Shown here one piece after another: positions 27,056 to 52,145 of a DNA stretch of 64,000 nucleotides. The stretch is taken from NCBI GenBank assembly GCA_029008875.1, contig JAQXJP010000035.1:310001-374000 (forward strand), given 5' to 3'. Both the position numbers and the translations under genes were made by a program. Each line of letters opens with the position of its first letter. Positions within the stretch are counted from its first letter, which is position 1. This DNA is from Lachnospiraceae bacterium. Its GTDB lineage: Bacteria; Bacillota; Clostridia; Lachnospirales; Lachnospiraceae. Under the pieces are notes generated by a model, which was not told the origin of the DNA, did not search any database, and saw nothing but the letters and a program-made list of their open reading frames with translations.

Positions 27056-27064
27056 TTGCCACCT

Positions 27065-27775
27065 CTAGTTTTTCCGCAAAAAGGCGATCACCGCATAGGG
27101 TTTACCCTCCTCATCGTTCAGCGCTATGGTGAAGCGCTCCCCCGTCTCCTTGACGGCCACAATGATTTTGTTGCCAAGTTTCGCCTCTTTTTTATATTCT
27201 ACACGAAGTTCCCCGATTTGGAAATCCTTCGGCACATATTCCAGCGCGATCACCACGTATTTCTCATTGTTCATGTGCTGATTGCTGTCGATAAAATGGC
27301 TGGGCACAACCATCTCACCACGAATTACCATCCCCTCCGGAATCGGAATCTTCCGCTCACTGCACTCCATCTCCAGCCGTGGCTCCGCCCCGTAAGTTTC
27401 AATCACATGTTCCGGCACCTTCACCGGTCTGCCGCTGTCCGTATCCATGAGCACCCACACGGAATTCGCGTACGCGCACCTGCTTCCGTCCTGCCGGTTC
27501 ATGGAAAAATTACGATAGCCGTAAAATGCCTTCATATCATAGGGCCAGGTCTGTATGGTCACATGTTCGGTAAGCTTTGGAAGCTCATTGATACAAATCT
27601 GCCAGGATGACAGCATCCATGTAACATGATTATCTGCCAAATACTGCACTCCCATTCCAAGTTCCTCCGACTGGAAATTACTGCAATCCTGAAAATAGTT
27701 CATAAGCGCACTCAACGTTAAATTGCAATCGGCATCCACTTCACTATACCGTATCTTACTTTCAAACTGATACAT
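27065..27775 (-). CDS. Acyl-ACP thioesterase
   Basis: About 236 residues with tandem hotdog folds. MYQFESKIRYSEVDADCNL opens the first domain, and SHFIDSNQHMNNEKYVVIA, with the catalytic Asn/His region, opens the second. It releases fatty acids from acyl-ACP. True start is ATG at 27775 behind GAGAGGTG; the ORF track start is 9 codons too long. It is the first gene of the thioesterase-cvfB-ridA run. Confidence 0.9.
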   Translation of the reverse strand: MYQFESKIRYSEVDADCNLTLSALMNYFQDCSNFQSEELGMGVQYLADNHVTWMLSSWQICINELPKLTEHVTIQTWPYDMKAFYGYRNFSMNRQDGSRCAYANSVWVLMDTDSGRPVKVPEHVIETYGAEPRLEMECSERKIPIPEGMVIRGEMVVPSHFIDSNQHMNNEKYVVIALEYVPKDFQIGELRVEYKKEAKLGNKIIVAVKETGERFTIALNDEEGKPYAVIAFLRKN

Positions 27776-27833
27776 ACTGCACCTCTCATTGCTGTCCATC
27801 ATCTGTACTCATTGCATTATAGCACGATAGATA

Positions 27834-27861
27834 TAAAAAAAGCACTACCTAATGTAGTGCT
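27834..27861 (-). terminator. Terminator of tRNA-Gln
   Basis: Minus-strand AGCACTAC, ATTA, GGTAGTGCT and TTTTTT follow the tRNA 3' end by about 8 nt. Confidence 0.88.
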
Positions 27862-27869
27862 CTTACAAG

Positions 27870-27942
27870 CTGGCCCACAAGGATTCGAACCTTGGAAATG
27901 ACGGAGTCAGAGTCCGTTGCCTTACCGCTTGGCGATGGGCCA
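27870..27942 (-). tRNA. tRNA-Gln (anticodon CTG)
   Basis: A cloverleaf can be drawn: acceptor TGGCCCA with TGGGCCA, D-arm GCC-AAGCGGTAA-GGC, anticodon stem ACGGA with TCCGT and loop CTCTGAC (anticodon CTG, reading CAG), and T-arm CCAAG-GTTCGAA-TCCTTG. The discriminator is G and the CCA end is not encoded. The overall sequence is typical of bacterial tRNA-Gln. Confidence 0.95.
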
Positions 27943-28066
27943 ATGTTTTCAACAGATGCTAGTATACATGAATCCCCAAGGAGTGTCAACCCTTTTTTCA
28001 ACTTTTCTCCAATCTTTTTCCTCCGCAATCCCTGCAATGCAGGCCGCAGGTTGCAGGCACGGCGGC

Positions 28067-28729
28067 TCAGGGAAAAATCTCCACCGTTCCCTCCACAAGG
28101 GCATAGGCAAGCGGCTCCCCCCAATCCATCTGCGCGGCACCGCTGGTCTGCTCCGTGATTGCCTTGGCCACAGACTCCTTCATCTCCTCCGGCACCATCA
28201 CATGGAGGGTCACATTCTCCGCATATTCCGAATCCACAATGGAGAGCTTCCTCTGCCCGAAAAGATACTGCAGTTTTCCCACCCCATTGTAATCCGTGCG
28301 GACAGATAAGCGATAGCCCCATGTCTTTTCCAGAATAAGGCTTGCCTCAAGTCCCTCCTGCACGGCCTTTTGGTACGCCCGCACCAATCCGCCGGTTCCA
28401 AGGAGCACGCCCCCGAAGTATCGGGTTACCACCACTGCGGTGTTGGTGATTCCCTCCTTCAGAAGCACATCCAGCATGGGCCGCCCCGCGGTCTGTGCCG
28501 GTTCCCCGTCATCCGAACAGCGGGTGATCTCCTGATGTTCCCCGATGACGAAGGCGGAGCAGTTGTGGCGCGCATCCCAATACTTTTTCTTCATCTCCGC
28601 AATGAAGGTAGCGGCCTCCTCCTCCGAATTGACCGGGCGGACCGTAGCGATAAAACGGGATTTCTTCTCGACAATTTCTCCCACACCGCCCTCATATACA
28701 ATTTTCACAGGAGTCGTTCCATCTGCCAT
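28067..28729 (-). CDS. YigZ/IMPACT family protein
   Basis: A 220-residue member of the UPF0029/IMPACT family. Hallmarks are EKKSRFIATVRPV, DARHNCSAFVIG, CSDDGEPAQTAGRPML and TRYFGGVLLGTGGLVRAYQ. A C-terminal ferredoxin-like domain follows. Its cellular role in bacteria is not firmly known. Start at 28729 has a weak upstream site (GGAAAGTG about 14 nt away). It is just upstream of tRNA-Gln on the same strand. Confidence 0.92.
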   Translation of the reverse strand: MADGTTPVKIVYEGGVGEIVEKKSRFIATVRPVNSEEEAATFIAEMKKKYWDARHNCSAFVIGEHQEITRCSDDGEPAQTAGRPMLDVLLKEGITNTAVVVTRYFGGVLLGTGGLVRAYQKAVQEGLEASLILEKTWGYRLSVRTDYNGVGKLQYLFGQRKLSIVDSEYAENVTLHVMVPEEMKESVAKAITEQTSGAAQMDWGEPLAYALVEGTVEIFP

Positions 28730-28920
28730 AATTTGTCATCACTTTCCGTTTTCATGGGTTTCTTCCTTAATTATATATCACACTTTGCTTTCCATTTTCA
28801 ATCCTTGTGTGTCGAGATTTTTATCTTCCTATTTGCTATAAATTTTGCTATAATATCAGCGTGTATACTTTTTTACACGTAGTACTTTAGAAAACAATAT
28901 TGATTGCAAGGAGGCCTAAT

Positions 28921-31509
28921 ATGAATTACGGCAAAAAAGCCACCAGGCAGCGGGAGGCAAAACTCGACGCCAGGGGCAAAAAGATTCGTAAGAAATTCGG
29001 CGTATTCTTCGGCAAGGCAGTTTTGGTCTGCCTCCTGCTTTTGGCAGTTGTGGGAATCAGCTCCGGCATCGGCGTTTGGAAGGGAATCGTAGATTCCGCT
29101 CCTGATATATCTGCAATGGATGTAACACCAACCGGCTACTCTACCACCGTCTATTCCAGCGATGGAACAGAGATCGCCACATTGGTTGCATCCGGCGCGA
29201 ACCGTAAGTATGCCACCATCGATGAAATCCCGCTGGATATGCAGCACGCATTTGTTGCGATTGAGGATTCACGATTCTACACCCACAACGGTATAGATCC
29301 AAAGGGTATTGTCCGCGCCGCGATCTCCGGTGTGGCAAACGGATTTCATTTTAATCAGGGTGCCAGTACCATCACCCAGCAGTTAATCAAGAACTCCGTT
29401 CTTGAGAGCAACTGGACCGGAGAGTTGTCCGGCAAGAGTTCCAAGCTGGAAAAAGTCCAGCGTAAGATTCAGGAGCAGTACCTGGCTGTGGAGCTGGAGA
29501 AAAAAGTCAACAACAAGGACTGGATTCTGGAGAATTATTTGAACACCATCAACCTGGGCAACAATACCCTGGGTGTTCAGGCCGCATCCCTCCGCTATTT
29601 CGGCAAGGAAGTCTCTGAGTTAAATCTGTCCGAATGCGCGGTTATCGCGGGAATTACCAAGAATCCATCCGCGTACAACCCGATTTCCCATCCGGACAAG
29701 AATGCGGAGCGCCGCGAGCTGGTACTGAATGCCATGCTGGAGCAGGGCTATATCACCCAGGCGGAGTACGACGAAGCCATGGCGGACGATGTGTACGACC
29801 GCATCGCCAATTACAACGCGGACTACATCGATGACGGCAACACCAACTCTTACTTCACCGACGCACTGATCGACGATGTGTATCAGGATTTGATTGATGC
29901 GGGATATACCAAGGCGGAAGCCTCCAAGCTTCTGTATCAGGGAGGTCTGTCCATTTACTCCACACAGGATCTTGCGATTCAGCAGATCTGCGACGAGGAG
30001 GTAAATAACCAGAGCAACTATCCCACCGACCCGAAGTATTCCTTCAGTTTGTATTTCCAGGTGCAGAAGGCGGATGGCACGCTCAAGACCTACACCCACC
30101 AGAGCATGCTGGCCTACTATCAACAGTCCAACTCGAAATACAATATCAATTTCAGCACCGAGGAAGCGGCATTGGAAGCCATCGCGCAATTTGAATCCGA
30201 CATCCTCGAGGAGGGCGACAGCATTATAGAGGGAAGCGAATCCATCGCCATCTCCCTTCAGCCCCAGGTTGCAATGACCGTTATCGACCAGTATACCGGA
30301 GAGGTTAAGGCATTGGTTGGCGGCCGCGGAAGCAAAGCGGGAAACCGTACCTTAAACCGTGCGACGGATACCACAAGACAGCCGGGATCCACCTTCAAGA
30401 TTATCGGTTGCTACGCCCCTGCACTGGATGCGGGCGGGCTTACACTTGCGTCCGTGCAGGACAATGCACCCTACACAGTTGGCACCAAAACATTCAAGAA
30501 TTACAATGACGAATATACCGGCTACACCACCGTGCGCCAGGCGATCACCCAATCCATCAACATTGTGACGGTGAAGACACTGGAGCAGATCGGTGTGGAC
30601 TTGGGTTATGAATATGTGGAGAAATTCGGTATCTCAACCCTGTGCGAGGATGATCGCAACCTTGCACTGTCCCTGGGCGGACTTACCAACGGTGTCACCA
30701 ACCTGGAGCTCACCGCAGCCTACGCAACAATCGCCAACGGCGGTGAATATATGGAGCCCAAATTCTACACCGTGGTGTACGACCACGATGGCAACATTCT
30801 GTTAGACAAGCGTGATACCCAGGAGACCCATGAGGTATTGAAAGATACCACCGCCTGGCTTCTCACCAGCGCAATGAGCGATGTTATGGTTGCCGGAACC
30901 GGTACCAGAGCTTACTTCGGAGCTTCCATGCCACAGGCCGGAAAGTCCGGTACCACCACAAGCAACCGCGATGCCCTGTTCGCAGGCTACACCCCTTACT
31001 ACACCTGTGTTGTATGGGGCGGAAATGACGACAATGCCGTTCAGGCCGGCAGCAACACCACCTACCCGAAAAACATCTGGCGTGAGACCATGAAACGAAT
31101 TCACGCAGACCTGGAATACAAGGAGTTTGACAAGCCGGCAGGCATCACCACCCAGGTGGTATGTAACCAATCCGGACTGCTGCCGATTCCGGGTGTCTGC
31201 GAGGCAGACCCGAGAGGCTCCACCCTTATCACCGAATATTTCGACATCGAGAACATGCCGAAACCGGAGGACGAAGTTTTCGGAGATGTGTATTGTAACC
31301 ACCATGTGGCTCTGGATATCTGTACTTCATCGGGGCTCATCGCCGATTCCGGATGTCCGCAGGATCAAATCCAGCGAGCAATTTATCTGGTCGGCTTATC
31401 CGAGGGTTCCACAGCCTACTCCATGAACGCACCTCAAGAATTCTTGGATGCGCGATGCAATGTCCACGGAAGTGGCTGGAACTGGATCTGGGACAATCTG
31501 AACGATTAG
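28921..31509 (+). CDS. Class A penicillin-binding protein (PBP1A type)
   Basis: A bifunctional peptidoglycan synthase of 862 residues. A basic cytoplasmic N-terminus and one membrane helix (about 31-53) are followed by glycosyltransferase 51 (AIEDSRFYTHNGIDPKGI with the catalytic Glu, and QGASTITQQL). The transpeptidase domain has SxxK in QPGSTFKIIG, SxN in QSINIVTVK and KSGTT. The C-terminus is Cys-containing (CEADPRG, CNHHVALDICTSSGL). Start is ATG at 28921 behind AAGGAGG; the ORF track uses a TTG seven codons upstream. It stands alone with a terminator. Confidence 0.95.
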   Translation: MNYGKKATRQREAKLDARGKKIRKKFGVFFGKAVLVCLLLLAVVGISSGIGVWKGIVDSAPDISAMDVTPTGYSTTVYSSDGTEIATLVASGANRKYATIDEIPLDMQHAFVAIEDSRFYTHNGIDPKGIVRAAISGVANGFHFNQGASTITQQLIKNSVLESNWTGELSGKSSKLEKVQRKIQEQYLAVELEKKVNNKDWILENYLNTINLGNNTLGVQAASLRYFGKEVSELNLSECAVIAGITKNPSAYNPISHPDKNAERRELVLNAMLEQGYITQAEYDEAMADDVYDRIANYNADYIDDGNTNSYFTDALIDDVYQDLIDAGYTKAEASKLLYQGGLSIYSTQDLAIQQICDEEVNNQSNYPTDPKYSFSLYFQVQKADGTLKTYTHQSMLAYYQQSNSKYNINFSTEEAALEAIAQFESDILEEGDSIIEGSESIAISLQPQVAMTVIDQYTGEVKALVGGRGSKAGNRTLNRATDTTRQPGSTFKIIGCYAPALDAGGLTLASVQDNAPYTVGTKTFKNYNDEYTGYTTVRQAITQSINIVTVKTLEQIGVDLGYEYVEKFGISTLCEDDRNLALSLGGLTNGVTNLELTAAYATIANGGEYMEPKFYTVVYDHDGNILLDKRDTQETHEVLKDTTAWLLTSAMSDVMVAGTGTRAYFGASMPQAGKSGTTTSNRDALFAGYTPYYTCVVWGGNDDNAVQAGSNTTYPKNIWRETMKRIHADLEYKEFDKPAGITTQVVCNQSGLLPIPGVCEADPRGSTLITEYFDIENMPKPEDEVFGDVYCNHHVALDICTSSGLIADSGCPQDQIQRAIYLVGLSEGSTAYSMNAPQEFLDARCNVHGSGWNWIWDNLND

Positions 31510-37453: not shown

Positions 37454-39586
37454 TTAGAGTGGTGAAACCTCAAAGAGCAAATCGCCGTAGGATGGCATCG
37501 GCCACATCTCCTTGTCCACGATCATCTCCAGCTCATCCACCGGTGCACGAAGCTCTTCCATAGCAGTTTTCACCACATCTCTGTAGTAGGCAGCCTGCTC
37601 AGCGCCTTCCGCCATCTCACCGGCCTTCTCCGTTACCTCCTGCAGTTTTGCAAGGGCAACCTTGGCATCGGACAACAGTGCGGAGGTTTCCGTCAAAAGC
37701 TCTGTCTGCACACTGACATCCGCATCGGCACATGCACCCTTCACGGATGTGAGCGAATTTGCAAGAACCGTGGTGTACTTGATGACTGCCGGGATAATCT
37801 GCTTTCCGGCAATGTCAATCATGGAGCGAGCCTCAATGTTGATGGTCTTGGAGTAGGTCTCGTACTCAATCTCCACACGGGACTCCAGCTCGGTCTTGGT
37901 AAATACACCGAACTTCTCAAACGCTGCAACATTTTCCGGAGCAACATATGCCGGGATTGCATCCACCATGGATTTGATGTTGGGAAGTCCTCTTCTGGCA
38001 GCTTCCTCCACCCACTCCTCGGAATATCCGTTTCCGTTGAAGATGATTCTCTGGTGCTCGGTTGCGTATTTCTTGATCAAATCATGTACAGCCAAATCGA
38101 AGTCATCGGCCTTTTCCAACACATCGCAAGCCTCGCTGAACGCTTCTGCCACGATGGTGTTGAGCACGATGTTCGGTTGTGCGATGGAAGCCTGTGAGCC
38201 AACCATACGGAACTCAAACTTGTTGCCGGTGAAAGCGAATGGTGAGGTACGGTTACGGTCGGTAGCATCCTTCATGAAATCCGGTAAGGTCTTAACACCG
38301 GTCTCCAGCTTGGAGCCTGACAGAGAGTGTGTTGCGGTTCCTGTGTTTACCAGCTGCTCAATCACATCCTCCAACTGCTCGCCCAGGAATACGGAAAGAA
38401 TTGCAGGAGGTGCCTCGTTGGCTCCCAATCTGTGGTCGTTTCCTACGTCTGCCGCTGATGCACGGAGGAGTGCTGCATGCTCATCCACCGCCTTTAGGAT
38501 ACAGGTAAGTACCAGAAGGAACTGAATATTCTCATGCGGTGTATCGCCCGGATCCAACAGGTTGATTCCGTCATCTGTAGTGATGGACCAGTTGTTGTGC
38601 TTTCCGGATCCGTTCACACCTGCAAATGGCTTCTCATGGAGCAGGCACTGTAAACCGTGACGTCCCGCTACCTTCTTCAAGGTTTCCATCACCAACTGGT
38701 TGTGATCTACGGCAACGTTGGCCTCGGAATAAATCGGAGCCAGCTCATGCTGAGCAGGTGCAACCTCGTTGTGCTGTGTCTTAGCAGATACGCCGAGCTT
38801 CCACAGCTCCTTGTTTACATCTCTCATGTATGCAGCGATTCTCTCACGGATGGCACCGAAGTAATGGTCGTCCATCTCCTGACCCTTCGGAGGCATTGCG
38901 CCAAACAAGGTGCGTCCTGCGAAAATCAAGTCTTTTCTCTGTAAGTATTTCTCTCTGTCTACCAGGAAGTACTCCTGCTCCGGTCCAACGGAAGGAGTAA
39001 CCTTTGTAGAGGTTGTATTGCCAAATAACCGAAGCAAGCGAAGAGCCTGCTCATTGATTGCTTCCATGGAACGAAGCATCGGTGTCTTCTGATCCAGTGC
39101 CTCGCCTGTGTATGAGCAGAATGCTGTGGGGATACAAAGTGTTGCGCCTGCTGCGTCCTGGCGAACAAACGCCGGTGAAGTACAATCCCACGCTGTGTAT
39201 CCTCTCGCCTCGAAGGTAGCTCGAAGTCCACCGGAAGGGAAGGAGGAAGCATCCGGCTCACCCTTAATTAATTCTTTTCCGGAGAAGCTCATCAATACTT
39301 TTCCGTTTTCCATCGGAGCAGTGATGAAAGAATCATGCTTCTCTGCGGTCACTCCGGTAAGAGGCTGAAACCAATGGGTATAATGGGTAGCTCCCTTTTC
39401 GATGGCCCATTCCTTCATCTCATGTGCAATGACATCGGCGGTCTCAAGATCTAACTCTTTTCCCTCCTCCATCACCTCATGGAGTTTCTTGTAAACTTTC
39501 TTTGGAAGTCTTGTCTGCATCACTGCATCGTTGAATACGTTCTCTCCAAAGATGTCTGCTACATTGTAGTACTCTGTTTCGCTCAT
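37454..39586 (-). CDS. glnN: Glutamine synthetase type III (copy 1)
   Basis: A 710-residue GSIII that makes glutamine from glutamate and ammonia using ATP. Family segments include [49 protein letters not shown] and [20 protein letters not shown]. It is nearly identical to the next gene upstream. Start is MSETEYYN at 39586 behind AAAGGATG; the ORF track adds 13 codons. It precedes the Amt-P-II gene, forming an ammonium uptake and assimilation unit. A promoter-leader-terminator arrangement precedes it. Confidence 0.96.
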
Positions 39587-39681
39587 ATCGTCTACATCCT
39601 TTCTTTTGCTCACGATCAAATCCAAATCCCCTTGATGTGATTATTTTTCAAATAATGATTGACTTTATTTTCTTAAGTACG

Positions 39682-39864: not shown

Positions 39865-41991
39865 CTAGATTGCGGATACTTCGAACAATAAATCTCCGTA
39901 GGAGGGCATCGGCCACATCTCCTTGTCCACCAGCATTTCCAATTGATCCACCGGCTTGCGGAGCGCTTCCATCGCCACAGTCACTTCATTGCGGTAGTAG
40001 AGGGCCTGTTCCTGTCCATGCGCCATCTCCGCCGCACGCTCCGTGACATCCTGCAGTTTTGCAAGGGCCACCTTCACATCGGACAACAGTGCGGAGGTCT
40101 CAACCAAAAGCTCTGTCTGCACACTGACATCCGCATCCGCACATGCTCCGCTCACCGCGGAGAGAGAATTTGCCAGAACCGTTGTGTATTTGATGACGGA
40201 AGGAATAATCTGTTTTCCCGCAATATCGATCATGGCGCGGGCCTCGATATTGATGGTCTTTGCGTAGGTCTCATATTCAATCTCCGCCCGGGACTCCAAT
40301 TCCGCCTTGGTGAACACGCCAAAGCGCTCAAATAACTGCACGCTCTCCGGGGACACATAGGCGGGAATTGCCTCCACCATGGACTTGATATTGGGAAGTC
40401 CGCGTCTTGCCGCTTCCTCCACCCACTCCTCAGAATATCCGTTTCCGTTGAAGATAATCCGCTGATGCTTTGTGGCGTACTCTTTGATCAGATCATGTAC
40501 CGCAAGGTCGAAGTTGTCCGCCTTTTCCAACACGTCACAGGCCTCGCAGAAGGCTTCCGCCACAATGGTGTTGAGCACCACATTGGCCTGGGCCACGGAA
40601 TCCTGGGATCCCACCATGCGGAACTCAAATTTATTGCCGGTAAATGCAAAGGGCGAGGTTCGATTTCGATCGGTCGCATCCTTCATGAAATCCGGCAGGG
40701 TCTTAACGCCGGTATCCAGACGCTCCCCCGTCAAACTGTGGGTTGCCAGACCGGTGCTCACCAGCTGCTCAATCACATCCTCCAGCTGCTCCCCCAGGAA
40801 CACGGACAAAATTGCAGGGGGTGCCTCGTTGGCTCCCAGACGGTGGTCATTTCCCACGTCCGCCGCGGATGCGCGCAGAAGTGCCGCGTGTTCATCCACC
40901 GCCTTCAGGATACAGGTAAGCACCAGAAGGAACTGGATGTTCTCGTGGGGCGTATCGCCCGGATCCAACAGGTTGATTCCGTCATCGGTGATCAGGGACC
41001 AGTTGTCATGCTTTCCGGATCCGTTGACTCCCGCAAAGGGTTTCTCATGGAGCAGGCAGTGCAAGCCATGACGCCCCGCCACCTTCTTCAGGGTCTCCAT
41101 CACCAGCTGGTTGTGATCCACCGCCACATTGCACTGTGCGTAGATGGGTGCAAGCTCATGCTGTGCCGGCGCCACCTCATTGTGCTGAGTCTTTGCGGAA
41201 ACGCCAAGCTTCCAAAGTTCCTTGTTCACATCCCTCATATATGCGGCGATTCGTTCCCGGATGGTACCGAAATAATGGTCATCCATCTCCTGCCCCTTGG
41301 GAGGCATTGCTCCAAACAGGGTGCGCCCCGCAAAAATCAGATCCTTGCGCTGCAGATATTTCTCCCGGTCAATCAGAAAATACTCCTGTTCCGCTCCCAC
41401 AGATGGAGTCACCTTCCGGGAGGTGTTGTTGCCGAACAGGCGAAGCAGTCGAAGCGCCTGTGCATTGATTGCCTCCATGGAGCGGAGAAGCGGTGTCTTC
41501 TGATCCAGGGATTCTCCGGTGTAGGAACAAAACGCGGTGGGAATACAGAGGGTTGCCCCCGCAGCATCCTGACGGACAAAGGCCGGGGAGGTACAATCCC
41601 ACGCGGTATATCCTCTGGCTTCAAATGTAGCTCGAAGTCCTCCGGAGGGGAAGGAGGATGCATCCGGCTCCCCTTTGATCAATTCCTTGCCGGAAAAACT
41701 CATCAGCACCTTGCCATTCTCCATGGGTGCGGTGATAAAGGAATCGTGCTTCTCTGCTGTCACCCCGGTAAGCGGCTGGAACCAGTGAGAGTAATGGGTT
41801 GCCCCTTTCTCGATGGCCCACTCCTTCATCTCATGCGCGATGACATCCGCTGTCTCAAGGTCTAACTCTTTTCCCTCCTCCATCACCTGATGAAGCTTAG
41901 CATATACTTTTTTCGGGAGCCTTGTCTGCATGACGGCATCGTTGAACACGTTCTCTCCAAAAATATCTGCCACATTATAATAATCTGCCAT
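39865..41991 (-). CDS. glnN: Glutamine synthetase type III (copy 2)
   Basis: A 708-residue GSIII starting [20 protein letters not shown]. It matches copy 1 over its whole length with scattered substitutions (for example [13 protein letters not shown] for [13 protein letters not shown]), and all family segments listed for copy 1 are kept, so both look functional. Its codon choice is more GC-rich at third positions than copy 1, so the duplication is not recent. Start is ATG behind GGAAAGG. Upstream lies about 120 nt of AT-rich DNA and then the large palindrome. Confidence 0.96.
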
Positions 41992-43941: not shown

Positions 43942-44907
43942 TTATTTATTGTCGGAAAACAGAAGGTCGTCCCCGAATTCCACCAGATGGGAGTCCTCCT
44001 CTGTCTCCTCATCCCCCTCCGGCGGCACAAAGATGGTCACTTTTTGCTTCAGGTTCTTGATGAGAAGGTCATCATGCTCCCCGCCAAATTCCCCGTCCAA
44101 CGTCCAGGGAATCTTCTCCTCACTGGAAAAATGAATCTCGCTGGTGCGGAATGTGTAGATCAAATCCGTATCGTCAATCAGATTTGTGAGACTTGCGAGA
44201 ATCTCGTTGAGCTCCATGAGATTTTTGGGTTTTTTAATCAAGGTGACCTCAAACTCCCCGTCATCCAGCTTTACATCGCTGCCTGTAATCCCCTTAAATC
44301 CGCCTACGGAAATGGAGTTGGTAACCATTCCCAGAATAAAGCGATCCTCGATCACATCCCCGTTGCTTTCAAACTTCATCTGATAGGAAGACAGATCATT
44401 CAAACGCTTGGCGCCTTCCAGTATGTATGCCACATGTCCAAACACATTTTTGAGCTGCTGGGGTGTCTGATAAGACACTTCGGTAAACACGCCAAATGCT
44501 GCCACATACACAAAGGAATCCCCGTTAAAATATCCGATATCACAGGGAAATCCGTTCTCGCCCACCGCAACCCTGGCCGCGTGCACCATCCCCTTGGGAA
44601 TCTTCAGGGAATTGGCAAAATCGTTGGTGCTTCCCGCAGGGATATAGCCAATGGGCACGTCCGCCCCGTTTTGCAGCATACCCGTCACCACCTCATCCAA
44701 GGTGCCATCTCCGCCGCTGCACACAATGCGGTCATACCGATCCGCTTCCTGTGCGATTTTCTGAATTGCATCTCCCTGAAACTGGGTGGTGTAAATGGTC
44801 ACTTCAAAGCCGGCCTTTACCATAAGGTCCACGATATCCACCACATAGTTTTTGATTAATCCCTTACCGGAGTGTGGGTTAAAAATAAACAACAGTTTTT
44901 TACTCAT
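43942..44907 (-). CDS. Diacylglycerol kinase family lipid kinase
   Basis: About 321 residues of the DagK/YegS family. Hallmarks are LLFIFNPHSGKGLIKN (N-terminal), VCSGGDGTLDEVV (nucleotide-binding GGDGT) and GYIPAGSTNDFANSL. The C-terminal beta domain has WTLDGEFGGEHD. It phosphorylates a membrane lipid, probably diacylglycerol. Start is MSKKLLFIF at 44907 behind GAGGTGGAG; the ORF track start is seven codons too long. It follows the Crh-like gene by about 40 nt. Confidence 0.92.
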   Translation of the reverse strand: MSKKLLFIFNPHSGKGLIKNYVVDIVDLMVKAGFEVTIYTTQFQGDAIQKIAQEADRYDRIVCSGGDGTLDEVVTGMLQNGADVPIGYIPAGSTNDFANSLKIPKGMVHAARVAVGENGFPCDIGYFNGDSFVYVAAFGVFTEVSYQTPQQLKNVFGHVAYILEGAKRLNDLSSYQMKFESNGDVIEDRFILGMVTNSISVGGFKGITGSDVKLDDGEFEVTLIKKPKNLMELNEILASLTNLIDDTDLIYTFRTSEIHFSSEEKIPWTLDGEFGGEHDDLLIKNLKQKVTIFVPPEGDEETEEDSHLVEFGDDLLFSDNK

Positions 44908-44948
44908 TCGCTCCACCTCAAAATACAATCAATGCCCTCCGGCATATC

Positions 44949-45197
44949 CTACTTTGACAAAAAATTTTCAATGGCCTCAATGGCTTCCTTCGCATCCTCT
45001 CCGTCCGCTTCCACAACGATTTTTTTGCCCATATCAAGGCCCAGGCCCATAACTCCCATAATACTCTTTGCATTTATGATCTTATCATCCATGGTGATGG
45101 TAATTTTTCCGGAATAGTTTCCCGCCAGCGCCACCAGTTCCGCCAGGGGACGGGCCTCAAATACTAAATTGCTGTTCACTGTTATCTCTTTTTTCAT
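44949..45197 (-). CDS. Crh-like HPr paralog lacking the catalytic histidine
   Basis: An 82-residue HPr-fold protein. At the place of HPr His15 it has Glu14 (VFEARPLAEL), so it cannot accept phosphate from PEP through enzyme I. The Ser46 position is kept (Ser45 in INAKSIMGVMGLG), so it can probably be phosphorylated by HPr kinase, encoded four genes upstream. This is the pattern of Bacillus Crh, which has Gln15 and sits after whiA, as here. Start at 45197 uses GGAGG within the whiA end; the ORF track start is eight codons too long. It likely serves carbon-catabolite signalling rather than sugar transport. Confidence 0.88.
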   Translation of the reverse strand: MKKEITVNSNLVFEARPLAELVALAGNYSGKITITMDDKIINAKSIMGVMGLGLDMGKKIVVEADGEDAKEAIEAIENFLSK

Positions 45198-45198
45198 C

Positions 45199-46083
45199 TT
45201 ATCCTCCCATATTTGTCTCACATGTTGAAGCGATTTCCGCCAATTTGCGCAACCTGTGATTCACCCCTGATTTGCCCACCGGGGGATCCAAAAGTGCGCC
45301 CAAATCCTTCAGCGGTGTGTCCGGATAGTCCAGTCGAAGCTGCGCCATCTCCCGCAGATGCTCCGGAAGTCCATCGAAGCCGATGGTATCCCGAATCAGC
45401 ATAATATCCTGTATCTGCTTTACCGCCGCATTCACTGTCTTGCTGATATTGGCGGTCTCACAGTTCACCTTTCGATTTACCGAATTGCGCATCTCCTTGA
45501 GAATGCGCACGTTTTCCAAATTCATCAGCGCCACATAGGCTTCCATAACATTCAGCATGTCTACAATTTGTGAGCCTTCCTTGAGGTAGACCACATAGTG
45601 CCCTTTGCGCTCCACAATTTTGGCATCCAGCTCAAAATTCTGCATCAGTTCCTGCAACTGGGATGCCTGTTCCACGCTCCTTGCCACCAATTCAAAATGG
45701 TAGGATTTCTGAGGGTCGCTCACTGACCCCACCGCCAGAAATGCGCCTCTCAAAAATGCTCTCTGGCAACAGGTCCGCTGCACCAAAAGTCCGTTGGTGC
45801 GGCTTCCCGCCTGCCGGTCCCGCTCCCACTTTACCGTCTCCAGCAGCCGTATCACATCCGCTTCCTCCAGCGGCTTGGAGATGTCCACGCCAAAAATCAG
45901 CTTCATGAGCAGCGCATATTTTTGTATCAGCACCGGATTGTCGGAATTCAGATGAATCCTCATGGGATGCTCCTGCACCACACCGTCAAATTCCAAAATT
46001 GCCGCCAGCTCCGCAATTTGGCAGTGCCTGCTCTTGCTGGTCTGGCGTATCAATTCCTCTTTTACATCGCTTGAAAAAGACAT
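45199..46083 (-). CDS. whiA: WhiA-family DNA-binding protein
   Basis: A 294-residue protein with an N-terminal homing-endonuclease-like fold (RGAFLAVGSVSDPQKSYHFELVA) and a C-terminal HTH (LKDLGALLDPPVGKSGVNHRLRKL). In Firmicutes WhiA affects cell division and chromosome segregation. It starts directly after the rapZ stop and ends 1 nt before the Crh-like start, in the conserved rapZ-whiA-crh order. The yvcK gene found between rapZ and whiA in Bacillus is missing. Confidence 0.96.
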   Translation of the reverse strand: MSFSSDVKEELIRQTSKSRHCQIAELAAILEFDGVVQEHPMRIHLNSDNPVLIQKYALLMKLIFGVDISKPLEEADVIRLLETVKWERDRQAGSRTNGLLVQRTCCQRAFLRGAFLAVGSVSDPQKSYHFELVARSVEQASQLQELMQNFELDAKIVERKGHYVVYLKEGSQIVDMLNVMEAYVALMNLENVRILKEMRNSVNRKVNCETANISKTVNAAVKQIQDIMLIRDTIGFDGLPEHLREMAQLRLDYPDTPLKDLGALLDPPVGKSGVNHRLRKLAEIASTCETNMGG

Positions 46084-46956
46084 TTATTTTCCTCTCAACG
46101 CATCCTTGCCCATGTCTCGATGTTCGATCTTGAGCCCGTATTCCTTCTTGCCCTCCAGCCTCTTGTACAGCTCGTTGGCAAGCGTCACCGAACGATGTTT
46201 TCCACCGGTACAGCCGATGGAGATCACAAGCTGGTTCTTCCCCTCGGCTATGTAGTTGGGAATCAGAAAATTGATGATATCCTCCAATTTGTCCAAAAAT
46301 TCCCGGGCCTCCGGGAACTGCATCACAAAGTCCTGAATCTCCTTATCATTGCCGGTCTTGGCCCTAAGCCCTTCCACATAGTAGGGGTTGGGCAAAAAAC
46401 GCACATCCATCACAATATCCGAATCCGCCGGAATGCCGTATTTAAATCCGAAGGAGAGAATGGTGACAAACAGATTCTTGTAATCCTGATTCTGGACAAA
46501 AATTTTCTCCAGTTCCACCTTCAATTCTCTGGTGAGGAGCTGGCTGGTGTCAATGATGTAGGTGGCATGCTGTTTGAGATAGGCAAGCTCCTCCCGCTCC
46601 TGGGCGATTCCCTTTTCCACGCGCTCCCCCGCCGCCAGCGGGTGATTGCGCCTGGTCTCCTTATACCTCTTTACCAACACCTCATTGTCCGCATCCAGAT
46701 AGAGAATCTCATAGGGACATTCCTTCTGATCCAGCAGCTTCAGAGTGCTCTCAATCTCCCGAAAGCCCTTTCCGCTGCGCACATCGATTCCGATTGCCAC
46801 CTTCTGTGTCTCTGTAAAATTTTCAGATAAATCCGCCACTTTGTCTAACAGCGGGAGGGGGAGATTATCGATACAGAAAAATCCCATATCCTCCATCATT
46901 TTCATGGCTGTGCTTTTTCCCGCCCCGGACATTCCGGTTACAATTACAAGTTTCAC
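46084..46956 (-). CDS. rapZ: RNase adapter RapZ (YvcJ) P-loop protein
   Basis: A 290-residue nucleotide-binding protein with Walker A GMSGAGKST near the N-terminus, LYLDADNEVLVKRYKETRR in the middle and the C-terminal domain GCTGGKHRSVTLANEL. In Gram-negatives RapZ controls GlmS mRNA decay; in Firmicutes YvcJ has a less clear role linked to competence and cell-wall metabolism. The start codon is GTG (reads VKLVIVTG). It follows murB by 5 nt. Confidence 0.95.
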   Translation of the reverse strand: MKLVIVTGMSGAGKSTAMKMMEDMGFFCIDNLPLPLLDKVADLSENFTETQKVAIGIDVRSGKGFREIESTLKLLDQKECPYEILYLDADNEVLVKRYKETRRNHPLAAGERVEKGIAQEREELAYLKQHATYIIDTSQLLTRELKVELEKIFVQNQDYKNLFVTILSFGFKYGIPADSDIVMDVRFLPNPYYVEGLRAKTGNDKEIQDFVMQFPEAREFLDKLEDIINFLIPNYIAEGKNQLVISIGCTGGKHRSVTLANELYKRLEGKKEYGLKIEHRDMGKDALRGK

Positions 46957-46961
46957 GCTGT

Positions 46962-47867
46962 CTATTCTCCAATAATCTTGACTTCAGGTTCCAATTCCAC
47001 ACCGAATTTGTCCATGACACGCTCCCGCACGTCCTCCATCAGCTGCAGCACTTCCGCAGCGGTGGCATCCTTGCGGTTAATCACAAATCCGCAATGCTTT
47101 TCCGCCACCTGGGCGTCCCCCACGCGATAACCACGCAGGCCTGCATCCATAATAAGCTTGCCCGCATAATAGCCTTCCGGTCGCTTGAAAGTACTCCCTG
47201 CGCTGGGGTATTCCAGAGGTTGCTTTTCCAACCTGCTGTCCCTCCATCCGGCCATCACACTCCGGATCTCATCCCGATCTCCCGGTTTCAGTTGAAGGGT
47301 TCCTCCCACCACAATATAGCCATTCTCGGGGATGCAACTGTGCCGGTAGGACAAATCCAGTTCCTCCACTGCCACGGTCAAAAAATTTCCCTCCGGGGTG
47401 AGCACTTCCACGGAGGTCAGAACATCCTTCATCTCTCCGCCATAGGCACCGGCGTTCATCACCACAGCTCCCCCGAAGGTTCCCGGGATTCCCCCGGCGA
47501 ATTCGAAACCGCCAAGCCCGGCATCCGCCGCGGCATTTGCAATGCGGCCAAGCATCGCTCCCGCCCCCGCATGGATTTTTGTGCCGTCCACCGTCACCTC
47601 CGACATGGGGCGTCCAATCTCCATGACAAGGCCTCGGATGCCTCCGTCTCTCACGAGAAGATTGCTGCCGTTTCCGATAATTGTCACCGGAACATTATGC
47701 TTTTTTGCGATGGCGAGGGCATCCAGCATCTGCTGTCGGTCCGGCGCGAGATAATAGTCTGCCGGTCCGCCGATTTTAAATGTGGTATGCCGCTTCATCG
47801 GCTCCTGCAGCAGGATTGCCTCCCGCGGGATATGTCCACATAGTTCCTGATAAAATTCCTGATTCAT
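46962..47867 (-). CDS. murB: UDP-N-acetylenolpyruvoylglucosamine reductase
   Basis: This FAD enzyme reduces UDP-GlcNAc-enolpyruvate to UDP-MurNAc, the second committed peptidoglycan step. At 301 residues it is the short type IIb form. Motifs include HTTFKIGGPADYYL, GNGSNLLVRDGGIRG, GIPGTFGGAVVMNAGAYGGE and PSAGSTFKRPEGYYAG with the catalytic Ser. Its start overlaps the stop of the upstream M18 peptidase gene (TAATG), showing translational coupling. Confidence 0.97.
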   Translation of the reverse strand: MNQEFYQELCGHIPREAILLQEPMKRHTTFKIGGPADYYLAPDRQQMLDALAIAKKHNVPVTIIGNGSNLLVRDGGIRGLVMEIGRPMSEVTVDGTKIHAGAGAMLGRIANAAADAGLGGFEFAGGIPGTFGGAVVMNAGAYGGEMKDVLTSVEVLTPEGNFLTVAVEELDLSYRHSCIPENGYIVVGGTLQLKPGDRDEIRSVMAGWRDSRLEKQPLEYPSAGSTFKRPEGYYAGKLIMDAGLRGYRVGDAQVAEKHCGFVINRKDATAAEVLQLMEDVRERVMDKFGVELEPEVKIIGE

Positions 47868-49261
47868 TACGCTTCCTTCAAAAATGCAACGTATCCTCTC
47901 AACGCCTCGTAGAGGTCAACCTTGCTGATAATCTCCCAAGGTGCATGCATGTTCAAAACCGGCACTCCGCTGTCAATGACATTCATGTCATAGTTTGCCA
48001 GAATATACGCGATGGTTCCACCGCCGCCCTGATCCACCTTGCCCAGCTCTGCGGTCTGGAATGCAACCTCGTTTGTATCCATAATATTACGAAGCTTGGC
48101 CATATATTCCGCATTGGCATCATTGGAGCCGGATTTTCCTCTGGATCCCGTGTATTTATTGAACACAAGGCCCTTCCCGAAATATGCAGCATTGCGCTTC
48201 TCCATCACGGACGGATAGTTGGGATCAAACGCCGCAGACACATCGGAGGACAATACCTTGGAGTTTTTCAGTGCGCGGCGCACCTTCAACTCGCTGTATT
48301 CTCCTGTGAGATTCACAAGCTCCGCAACCGTGTTTTCGAAGAAGCGGGACTGCATTCCGCTGGCTCCCACGCTTCCGATTTCCTCCTTGTCCACCAGGAG
48401 ACATACGCTGGTGTACTCCGGTGTCTTCACCTCCAGCATTGCGCGGTAGGACGGGTACGCGCACACGCGGTCATCGTGTCCGTATCCCATAATCATACTG
48501 CGGTCAAATCCGTAATCCCGGGCATCGCCGGCGGGAACCACCTCAATCTCCGCGGACAGGAAGTCATCCTCCTCCACACCGTATTCTTTTTCCAAAATCT
48601 TGAGGAGGTTGGCCTTGACCAAATCCTTTGCTTTCTCCTTCTCCTCCTCTGCCATGGGGATGCTGGCCACCAACAGGTCCAGGTTCTCCCCTTCCACCAC
48701 TTTGGCACCTTTCTTCTCCATCTGGTCTGCGGATAAGTGAATCAACAGATCGCTCACGCCGAATACCGGATCCCCCGGTTTGTCGCCGATATTCACCTTC
48801 ACCGAAGTTCCATCCTTCTTGCAGAACACTCCGTGCAGCGCAAGGGGAAGGGTTACCCACTGATATTTCTTAATTCCGCCGTAATAATGGGTATCCAGCA
48901 TGGCAAACTCGGTGTCCTCATAGAGAGGAACCTGCTTCAGATCCATTCTGGGGGAGTCAATGTGTGCCCCCAAAATATTCATGCCCTCCTCCAATGGTTT
49001 CTTGCCGATGATAAAAAGTGCGAGGCCTTTCCCCATGTTGTTGGCCACGATTCGGTCGCCCTTTTTCAGCTTCTTTCCGGTCTTTACCGCCTCATCAAAA
49101 TCCACAAATCCATGCTTAATCGCATCTTCATAGATTGCGGCTGTACACTCCCTCTCGGTCTTGCACTCCGAGATAAATCTGCGGTAGTCCTCCGCGAAAG
49201 CGAATACTTTCTCTCTCTTTTTTCCCTCCGGATATTTCATCCATGCATTGTCTTTGCTCAT
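47867..49261 (-). CDS. M18 family aminopeptidase
   Basis: A 464-residue zinc aminopeptidase of the M18 (aspartyl aminopeptidase-like) family. Metal-binding segments include LGAHIDSPRMDLKQ, CLLVDKEEIGSVGASGM, ADVSAAFDPN-like DVSAAFDPNYPS and VLNMHAPWEIISKVDLYE. It probably trims N-terminal residues from cytoplasmic peptides. Its presence between hprK and murB in this operon is unusual relative to Bacillus. The ribosome binding site is GGAGG. Confidence 0.93.
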   Translation of the reverse strand: MSKDNAWMKYPEGKKREKVFAFAEDYRRFISECKTERECTAAIYEDAIKHGFVDFDEAVKTGKKLKKGDRIVANNMGKGLALFIIGKKPLEEGMNILGAHIDSPRMDLKQVPLYEDTEFAMLDTHYYGGIKKYQWVTLPLALHGVFCKKDGTSVKVNIGDKPGDPVFGVSDLLIHLSADQMEKKGAKVVEGENLDLLVASIPMAEEEKEKAKDLVKANLLKILEKEYGVEEDDFLSAEIEVVPAGDARDYGFDRSMIMGYGHDDRVCAYPSYRAMLEVKTPEYTSVCLLVDKEEIGSVGASGMQSRFFENTVAELVNLTGEYSELKVRRALKNSKVLSSDVSAAFDPNYPSVMEKRNAAYFGKGLVFNKYTGSRGKSGSNDANAEYMAKLRNIMDTNEVAFQTAELGKVDQGGGGTIAYILANYDMNVIDSGVPVLNMHAPWEIISKVDLYEALRGYVAFLKEA

Positions 49262-49284: not shown

Positions 49285-50229
49285 CTACTCATCGTCGGAA
49301 TTTCTTGTCAGGTTTTCCTGCACGCGGCGATACAATTCCTGGGCTGCGTTGTATCCCATTTTTTTCTGTCTGTGGTTGACTGCCGCCGCCTCGCAGATGA
49401 CCGCAAGGTTCCGCCCCGGGCGAATGGGAAGGGAATGGCACACCACCTTGTTGCCCAGGTACTCTGCATACTCTTCCTCCAGTCCCAGGCGATCGTACTC
49501 CGCATCTTTTTTCCAGTCCTCCAGCTTGATGACCAGATCAATCTGCTGCTTTTCCTTTACGCACTCCACACCGTAGAGAGTCTTGACATCAATGATGCCG
49601 ATTCCTCGAAGTTCAATGAAATGTCTGGTAATCTCCGGAGAAGTTCCCATCAACGTGTGCTCGTTAATCTTGCGGATTTCCACCACATCGTCCGTCACCA
49701 GACGATGTCCCCGGCGAATCAGCTCCAGAGCGGCTTCACTCTTGCCGATTCCGCTCTCGCCGGTGATCAGCAAGCCCTCGCCGTACACATCCACCAGCAC
49801 TCCGTGGATGGTGACACAGGGTGCCAACTGCTCACCCAGAGTATAGATCAACTCCGCGGTAAAGTCGGAGGTTGCCCTGCTGGTTCCGAGAACCGGCACA
49901 TTGTTCTTGATTGCAGCCTCAAGGAAAATCGGGTCCGGCTCCAAATCTCTGCAGTAGATGACACAGGGAATGTCGTAGCTCAAAAATTCCATAAAGCGGA
50001 TTGCCTTTTCCTCCGGACTCAACTTCTCCAGATAGGTGTACTCCACATTTCCGATAATCTCCACCCTGGACTCTTCAAAATGTTCAAAATATCCGGTCAG
50101 CTGAAGCGCCGGTCGGTTCACATCCGAACTGGTGATTTTGCGCTTCTTTACCTCCAATTCATCCGTGTAATTTTTCAAATCCATCAACTCGATAATTTTT
50201 GAAACACTTACCCCACTTGTATTTGGCAT
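49285..50229 (-). CDS. hprK: HPr kinase/phosphorylase
   Basis: A 314-residue sensor enzyme that phosphorylates Ser46 of HPr and Crh under good carbon supply and reverses it otherwise. An N-terminal domain is followed by the catalytic domain with Walker A GESGIGKSEAALELI and the HprK signature MGTSPEITRHFIELRGIGIIDVKTLYG. It shares an operon with the Crh-like gene, and its other target HPr is at the left window edge. It follows uvrC by 35 nt. Confidence 0.97.
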   Translation of the reverse strand: MPNTSGVSVSKIIELMDLKNYTDELEVKKRKITSSDVNRPALQLTGYFEHFEESRVEIIGNVEYTYLEKLSPEEKAIRFMEFLSYDIPCVIYCRDLEPDPIFLEAAIKNNVPVLGTSRATSDFTAELIYTLGEQLAPCVTIHGVLVDVYGEGLLITGESGIGKSEAALELIRRGHRLVTDDVVEIRKINEHTLMGTSPEITRHFIELRGIGIIDVKTLYGVECVKEKQQIDLVIKLEDWKKDAEYDRLGLEEEYAEYLGNKVVCHSLPIRPGRNLAVICEAAAVNHRQKKMGYNAAQELYRRVQENLTRNSDDE

Positions 50230-50264: not shown

Positions 50265-52145
50265 TCACAATTTCCCGCCTTCTTCAACTTCATGGAAAAA
50301 GCGGTACACCGCCTCCGCCGCCGCCTGATTCATGGAGTCCGTCAACATCAAATCCGCAACGGTCGCCTCCTTGATTTTTTCCAGGGACTGGTATCTCCTC
50401 ATCAGGGCCTTTCTTCTGGCCGGACCGATTCCCGGAATATCATCCAACACAGAGTGCACCTGCTCCTTGGAGCGCAAGGATCTGTGGTATTCGACGGCAA
50501 ACCGATGGGCCTCATCCTGAATTCTGGTAATCAGCTTGAATCCCTCACTGTGCCGGTCGATGGGCACCTCTACATTGTTGTAATACAATCCCCTGGTATT
50601 GTGATTGTCGTCCTTCACCATGCCGCAGACCGGAATATGGAGTCCCAACTCCTGCAGCACCTGCAGACAGATATTCACCTGTCCTCTTCCTCCGTCCATC
50701 AATATGAGATCCGGGAATCTGATAAAGCTTCCCACCTCCTCCGGGGTATCGCCTGTCTGCAGTTCCTCCATCTCCTGGAGGCCGTGCAGAAGCCGGCGGG
50801 TCAGCACCTCATGCATGGAAGCGTAATCGTCCGGCCCGGTTACGGTGCGCAGTTTAAATTTGCGGTAATCGCTCTTTTTGGCCTTTCCCTTTTCAAATAC
50901 CACCATGGAGCCAACGGTCTCAAAACCACTGATGTTGGAGATATCGAAAGCCTCCATCCGGTTTAGGTTCTTCATGCCCAGAAGTTTTTCGATTTCCCGG
51001 ACCGCTCCGATGGTGCGCCCCTCCTCCCGCTTTATCTTTTCCTTATCCTGGTCCAGCACCATCTGCGCATTCTTGGCAGCCAGCTCCACAAGCCGCTCCT
51101 TCATCCCTTTCCGGGGAATGCGGATGTACACGCGGCTGCCCCGCTTTCTGGTCAGCCACTCCTCCAGCACTTTCGCCTCCTCCACCGCCTGCTGCAGCAT
51201 AATCTCCCGGGGGATATAGGGTGTGCCGGAATAGAACTGCTTGATAAAATCTGCCAGAATGGTGGACCGCTCCGTCTCGGTTCCCACCCGCACATGGAAA
51301 TGGTCTCTTCCGATGAGTTTTCCGCCCCGCACGAAAAACACCTGCACCACCGCATCCGTGTCGTCGCAGGCCACGGCCACAATGTCCTTATCCTCCCCAT
51401 CACTCTGGGTGATCTTCTGCTTCTGTGCAATCTGGTTCACACTGTTGATCAGATCACGATATTCCATGGCCTTTTCAAACTCCATGGCCTCGGAGGCCTG
51501 CTGCATCTTCTCCCGGAGCATGGCGAGAATGGGCTTTTGATTCCCGTTCAGAAAGTCGATGGCTTCCTGAACTTTTGCCCGATATTCCTCCTTGTCCACA
51601 ATGCCCTGACAGGGTGCAAGGCACTGATGGAGATGGTAGTTCAGGCAGGGTCGATCTGCTCCGATATCCCTGGGCAGTTTGCGGTTGCAGGTGCGCAACC
51701 CCAACAGTTTGTTCAGCAGCTCCACCGTCTGATTCACCGCGTATCCGCTGGTGTAGGGACCGAAATATCTGGACTTATCTTTTTTCATCTGGCGAACCAC
51801 CTGTATTCGGGGATAGTCTTCCCCCAGGGTTACCCGAATATACGGGTAGGTCTTGTCGTCTCGGAGCATGGTATTGTACTTGGGCATGTGCTCCTTAATG
51901 AGGTTGCACTCCAGCACCAGAGCCTCCAGTTCCGAATCCGTGATCACATACTCGAACCATGCGATGTGCTCCACCATCTGCTTTTTCTTGAGCCCCTCAT
52001 TATGGCTGGGCTGAAAATACTGGTGCACACGTTTGCGCAGGCTCACGGCCTTCCCGATATAGATGATTACATCATTTTTGTCGTGCATAATATAAACTCC
52101 CGGTTGATCCGGGAGTTTACTTAATTCCTCTTTGATATCAAACAT
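50265..52145 (-). CDS. uvrC: Excinuclease ABC subunit UvrC
   Basis: The dual-incision nuclease of nucleotide excision repair, 626 residues as usual. N-terminal GIY-YIG nuclease ([19 protein letters not shown]), UVR motif ([11 protein letters not shown]), UvrC homology domain ([35 protein letters not shown]) and a C-terminal HhH ([16 protein letters not shown]). It begins 1 nt after the ftsH stop. Confidence 0.97.

Follow-up and report, generated by a model that had tools for sequence, protein, structure and literature searches.

A whiA-linked HPr-like protein with a glutamate in place of His15 points to a division of the two HPr sites between separate proteins in Lachnospiraceae

HPr is the standard textbook example of a small protein in which two antagonistic phosphorylations link sugar uptake to gene control. 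Crh of Bacillus is an HPr-like regulator with no phosphotransfer histidine, whose gene we take to adjoin whiA from the gene order of B. subtilis. Bacillus Crh is also linked to methylglyoxal synthase, a connection for which we found no paper in the open-access literature. In Proteobacteria such as Brucella, HprK acts on an HPr/NPr-type protein without CcpA. Position 15 has also been altered experimentally: HPr(His15Asp) relieves catabolite repression in Thermoanaerobacterium, Ser phosphorylation of HPr(His15Asp) variants in vitro is cited in the same report, and an acid or a phosphate at position 15 is expected to disrupt binding of HPr to CcpA (PMC3526391).

The window analysed here, the whole stretch of 64,000 nucleotides from the genome of a Lachnospiraceae bacterium, contains a gene for an HPr-like protein in the minus-strand run uvrC-hprK-M18 peptidase-murB-rapZ-whiA-HPr-like, where it is the seventh gene and no gap exceeds 36 bp. 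The features of the locus are as follows.

43942-44928, minus strand: diacylglycerol-kinase-like lipid kinase gene, next downstream of the HPr-like gene (PF00781, 103 bits)
44949-45197, minus strand: HPr-like regulatory protein gene, 82 aa, acid in the His15 column and Ser46 kept (PTS-HPr match, HPr-fold model)
45063-45065, minus strand: Ser45 codon (AGT), column of the regulatory Ser46, within NAKSIMG (alignments)
45156-45158, minus strand: Glu14 codon (GAG), column of HPr His15 and Crh Gln15 (alignments)
45203-45207, minus strand: GGAGG ribosome-binding site of the HPr-like gene, overlapping the 3' end of whiA (sequence)
45199-46083, minus strand: whiA (TIGR00647, 272 bits)
46084-46956, minus strand: rapZ (yvcJ) (NF003828, 365 bits)
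46962-47867, minus strand: murB (NF010480, 374 bits)
47867-49261, minus strand: M18 family aminopeptidase gene (NF002600, 712 bits)
49285-50229, minus strand: hprK, HPr(Ser) kinase/phosphorylase (TIGR00679, 375 bits against a cut-off of 240; Walker A motif GESGIGKS)
50265-52145, minus strand: uvrC, upstream of hprK in the same run (sequence and position; name from family knowledge)

The HPr-like gene begins 1 bp downstream of whiA, the neighbour expected of a crh gene, and the placement of hprK at 49285-50229 on the same strand confirms the original prediction that the two genes share one run. In a scan for promoters and terminators, the counts differed from those in shuffled sequences by no more than about one and a half standard deviations. 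Elsewhere on the minus strand, the window holds a tandem pair of glutamine-synthetase-like genes (37454-39625 and 39865-41991; about 700 aa, 91% identical) that score below all curated NCBIfam cut-offs and that we read as GlnN type.

The reading frame runs from an ATG at 45197 to a stop at 44949 (82 codons), and its predicted product, MKKEITVNSNLVFEARPLAELVALAGNYSGKITITMDDKIINAKSIMGVMGLGLDMGKKIVVEADGEDAKEAIEAIENFLSK, scores 85.1 bits against the Pfam PTS-HPr model (PF00381), for which the cut-off is 23, placing it in the HPr family. Its AlphaFold model (pLDDT 93) has the strand and helix order of HPr, and its top PDB matches, with E about 1e-8 for the fold, are structures of HPr and Crh; the PDB entry closest in sequence is Thermoanaerobacter HPr (3le1). 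A chance reading frame was rejected on the Pfam match, the ribosome-binding site and the fold. HMMER and BLAST align Glu14 with His15 of Bacillus HPr and Gln15 of Crh, and Ser45 with Ser46, bearing out the predicted combination of a glutamate at the His15 position with a retained regulatory serine; Glu14 itself, and no other residue, falls in the His15 column when the protein is aligned with the two families. Glu14 directly precedes the first helix (residues 15-26) of the model, as His15 does in HPr. The histidine required of a PTS phosphocarrier is thus replaced by Glu, and the combination that marks Crh, loss of His15 with Ser46 kept in KSIMG, is present as Glu14 and NAKSIMG.

The stretch downstream of whiA was then compared in 110 genomes of the host's family (apparently Lachnospiraceae), one per genus, and an HPr-like gene was found beside whiA at 100 of these loci. 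Residue 15 (in HPr numbering) is Glu in 80 of the 100 copies and Asp in 11, with Gly, Ala and Gln in two each and Asn, Cys and Ser in one each, so that nine are non-acidic; His is found in none of the 100, nor is Lys or Arg. Ser46 is present in all 100, and residues 43-51 (NAKSIMGxM) are nearly invariant. The Agathobacter relative, for instance, is 62% identical and has Asp15; further named relatives are found in Blautia, Roseburia, Lacrimispora, Fusicatenibacter and Lactonifactor, and Glu15 also occurs in Vallitaleaceae, Epulonipiscium and Sporanaerobium. Misalignment or an oddity of one genome was rejected, as Glu or Asp stands at position 15 in 91 of 100 other genera. Outside the family but within the class, only 15 of 70 whiA loci carry an HPr-like gene (one being in a same-family genome), and the other-family copies have His or Gln at position 15 in five cases each and Thr, Tyr, Asn or Lys in one each, always with Ser46.

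Could the glutamate simply persist by descent, functionless at its site, in a redundant paralog that lost His15? One ancestral Glu would yield many Glu copies, and the acidic-15 copies do form a single group in the tree described below. On a tree of 101 copies (median identity 52%), however, residue 15 changed about 15 times, mostly between Glu and Asp, while many columns changed 40-60 times, as free columns do; the acidic state itself was switched only about 8 times. The column ranks third by frequency of an acidic residue and, by how often it changed, 28th of 81. We therefore regard descent alone as very improbable. The conserved acidity, with Glu/Asp exchange across 100 genera (91% acidic) and no Lys, Arg or His, would also suit a built-in phosphohistidine mimic, gated by Ser46 and directed toward PRD regulators, glycerol kinase or similar targets. 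Acids imitate phosphohistidine imperfectly, and they cannot donate the phosphate that control of PRD regulators and GlpK requires; such a mimic seems improbable to us, if somewhat less so than descent alone.

A more telling fact than the glutamate alone, and one invisible to the original prediction, is a mirror-image loss of Ser46 in the HPr of the PTS. Six HPr-type reading frames were found in the host genome. The host ptsH lies on a separate contig (C25, at 28548) in an operon spanning 27058-30284, preceded by a PTS EIIBC gene and followed by ptsI, the only one found in the genome as judged by the Enzyme I N-domain; the product of ptsH keeps His15 (GIHARP) and has Lys46, with CKKIFG standing against KSIMG in direct alignment. 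Across the family, His15 is present in 61/61 ptsI-linked HPrs and Ser46 is absent from 52 of them, residue 46 being Lys in 21, Arg in 18, Ser in 9, Ala in 5, Gly in 4, Gln in 3 and Thr in 1; the nine serines all lie outside a KSIMG context. Roughly one third of the family's ptsI loci have no HPr within the stretch that was read. Among the 49 genomes that could be scored for both genes, 39 show the full split, with an acidic-15/Ser46 copy beside whiA and a His15/non-Ser46 copy beside ptsI; of the other 10, seven have some Ser46 in the PTS copy and three have a non-acidic residue 15 in the whiA-linked copy. In other families of the class, residue 46 of the ptsI-linked HPr is Ser in about 11 (one doubtful), Arg in 7 and Lys in 1, and 4 of 5 examined genomes with Arg or Lys46 also have another HPr, of KSLLG type, that carries both sites.

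In one further paralog of the host the two sites occur together. This third HPr, encoded at 85-348 of the window on the minus strand, with glmM on one side and a sugar-transferase-like gene on the other, has His15 (GLHLRP) as well as Ser46 in the altered motif NAKSVLSVL, and is part of a distinct HPr clade that recurs. An absolute split was rejected because of such KSVLS-type HPrs and the nine ptsI-linked copies with Ser46. Two further HPr-like reading frames of the host, on contigs C13 (82637) and C18 (24240; flanked by thiI-like and mtaB-like genes), lack the whole His15 segment and keep DAKSIMG. Truncated copies of this type recur in nearly all of 15 genomes enumerated, from several families; as read from their sequences, they are a second kind of Ser46-only HPr. 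Another paralog, about 12 kb outside the window on the same contig (386043-386279), has EGHDNP in place of GIHARP with NAKSIMG kept; it sits on a long branch inside the acidic-15 clade, and a similar NKHKNA copy occurs in another sampled genome.

One alternative is that the protein is an ordinary Crh, a corepressor of CcpA once Ser46 is phosphorylated, in which Glu is one more tolerated replacement of His15. Its whiA linkage, presumably as for crh in Bacillus, the retained Ser46 and KSIMG interface, and the Gln, Thr, Tyr, Asn or Lys at position 15 in other Clostridia are all as this reading would have it. The equivalog models, however, set the protein apart from both named families: it scores 70.5 bits against the HPr model NF010352 (cut-off 110; B. 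subtilis HPr 157.9) and 68.2 bits against the Crh model NF010354 (cut-off 123), which B. subtilis Crh matches at 165.1. A tree was built from 80 columns, after removal of the two trait columns (15 and 46), and is weak at this length. In it, copies with an acidic residue 15 group together (SH-aLRT 92) and away from Bacillus Crh, which clusters with copies from Bacilli (SH-aLRT 91); the PTS HPrs with Lys or Arg46 form their own group (99), and HPrs of the KSVLS/KSIMN type a third (96). The phylogeny of whiA-adjacent HPr-like proteins, proposed as a check of the original prediction, yields an acidic-15 clade that, in this weak tree, does not join Bacillus Crh, and membership of Crh itself is not supported, given the score of 68 bits against 165 and, on the weak tree, the separate grouping. 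His15 changes 9 times on the best tree, and the histidine of whiA-linked copies thus appears to have been lost repeatedly.

An ordinary Crh also implies a CcpA partner. We searched with B. subtilis CcpA (the query sequence verified by a match of 718 bits to structure 3oqm), and a match was accepted as canonical only if it carried Asp297, Arg304 and Lys308 together. Asp297 and Lys308 are taken here, as our own assumption, to be HPr-contact residues of CcpA. Arg304 has been described as such (PMC4591507). In the host, the genome of which is about 93% complete, the best match reaches 117 bits at 27% identity, and no match has all three residues, so the partner expected of a Crh was not found there. 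In 60 genomes of the family the top match is 218 bits, and 0/30 of the best matches that were read carry all three, while three control genomes of the class give matches of 271-279 bits with all three present. Most genomes of the class are likewise without a canonical CcpA. It is possible that the partner of the HPr-like protein is a diverged CcpA. With the failed Crh model, the separate grouping in a weak tree and no canonical CcpA found, it is doubtful that the protein simply parallels Crh as a corepressor of CcpA; residue 15 is, moreover, mostly acidic and not freely variable, and an acid there is expected to disrupt CcpA binding (PMC3526391). We consider an ordinary Crh unlikely, though less so than mimicry. 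The predicted signalling role parallel to Crh therefore survives in part: a Ser46-only paralog beside whiA, in one run with hprK and outside Bacillus, argues for signalling and not transport, whereas the implied CcpA partner is not seen with the tested contact residues among the matches read.

We favour, as the probable reading of these sequences, that HPr has been divided, with the whiA-linked protein as the half devoted to regulation alone: a substrate of HprK that is deaf to Enzyme I. HprK, sensing the energy and glycolytic state, would phosphorylate and dephosphorylate Ser46, and the Ser-phosphorylated protein would then bind a putative partner. With an acidic residue 15, Enzyme I presumably could not phosphorylate the protein, and the Ser46 signal would be uncoupled from PTS flux; conversely, Lys or Arg46 in the PTS HPr would leave sugar transport through that protein unthrottled by HprK. 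A division of labour in which the ptsI-linked HPr transports and the whiA-linked copy signals, the first insulated from HprK and the second from Enzyme I, is what we infer as the most economical account. As no canonical CcpA was found, the partner may be a diverged LacI-type regulator, a transporter or an enzyme. The acid at position 15 probably acts by local electrostatics, through capping of the first helix, pairing with Arg17, exclusion of Enzyme I or choice of partner. Phosphohistidine mimicry, raised in the original prediction, is a hypothesis only and one version of such an electrostatic role, and the conserved acidity fits it and its alternatives alike. The in vitro Ser phosphorylation of HPr(His15Asp) indicates that HprK may tolerate an acid at 15, and this tolerance, together with the expected disruption of CcpA binding, fits a regulator that has left CcpA (PMC3526391). 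More tentatively, the whole family may have split HPr in two, the regulatory half working via HprK on a non-CcpA target with acid 15 replacing the phosphohistidine input; we hold this fuller version possible, but well short of probable.

In this family, apparently the Lachnospiraceae, a dominant group of fibre-fermenting gut bacteria, the two sites of HPr are mostly on separate proteins. Should HprK signalling indeed run independently of PTS flux and have an end point other than CcpA, another model of carbon catabolite control would be required for these bacteria, and the family offers a natural experiment on what each HPr site does alone. We found no paper describing a divided HPr in Lachnospiraceae in the open-access literature, a search whose scope excludes most subscription journals.

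Compared with described systems, the protein shares with Crh of Bacillus the HPr fold, the missing phosphotransfer histidine, Ser46 in KSIMG and the whiA neighbour, but it is only 32% identical to Crh, which has Gln15, and differs from it in the acid at 15 conserved across the family and in forming one run with hprK. The host's PTS HPr lacks Ser46, whereas HPr of Bacillus keeps both sites. The fold and the Ser46 motif are shared with HPr (PtsH) of Firmicutes, from which the HPr-like protein differs in having neither His15 nor linkage to ptsI. The Brucella-type HPr/NPr protein retains its histidine, which the whiA-linked protein has lost. Finally, an acid at position 15 is shared with engineered HPr(His15Asp) (PMC3526391; E. 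coli structures 1cm2 and 1cm3), but those proteins are laboratory mutants, whereas the acid of the HPr-like protein is natural and conserved across genera.
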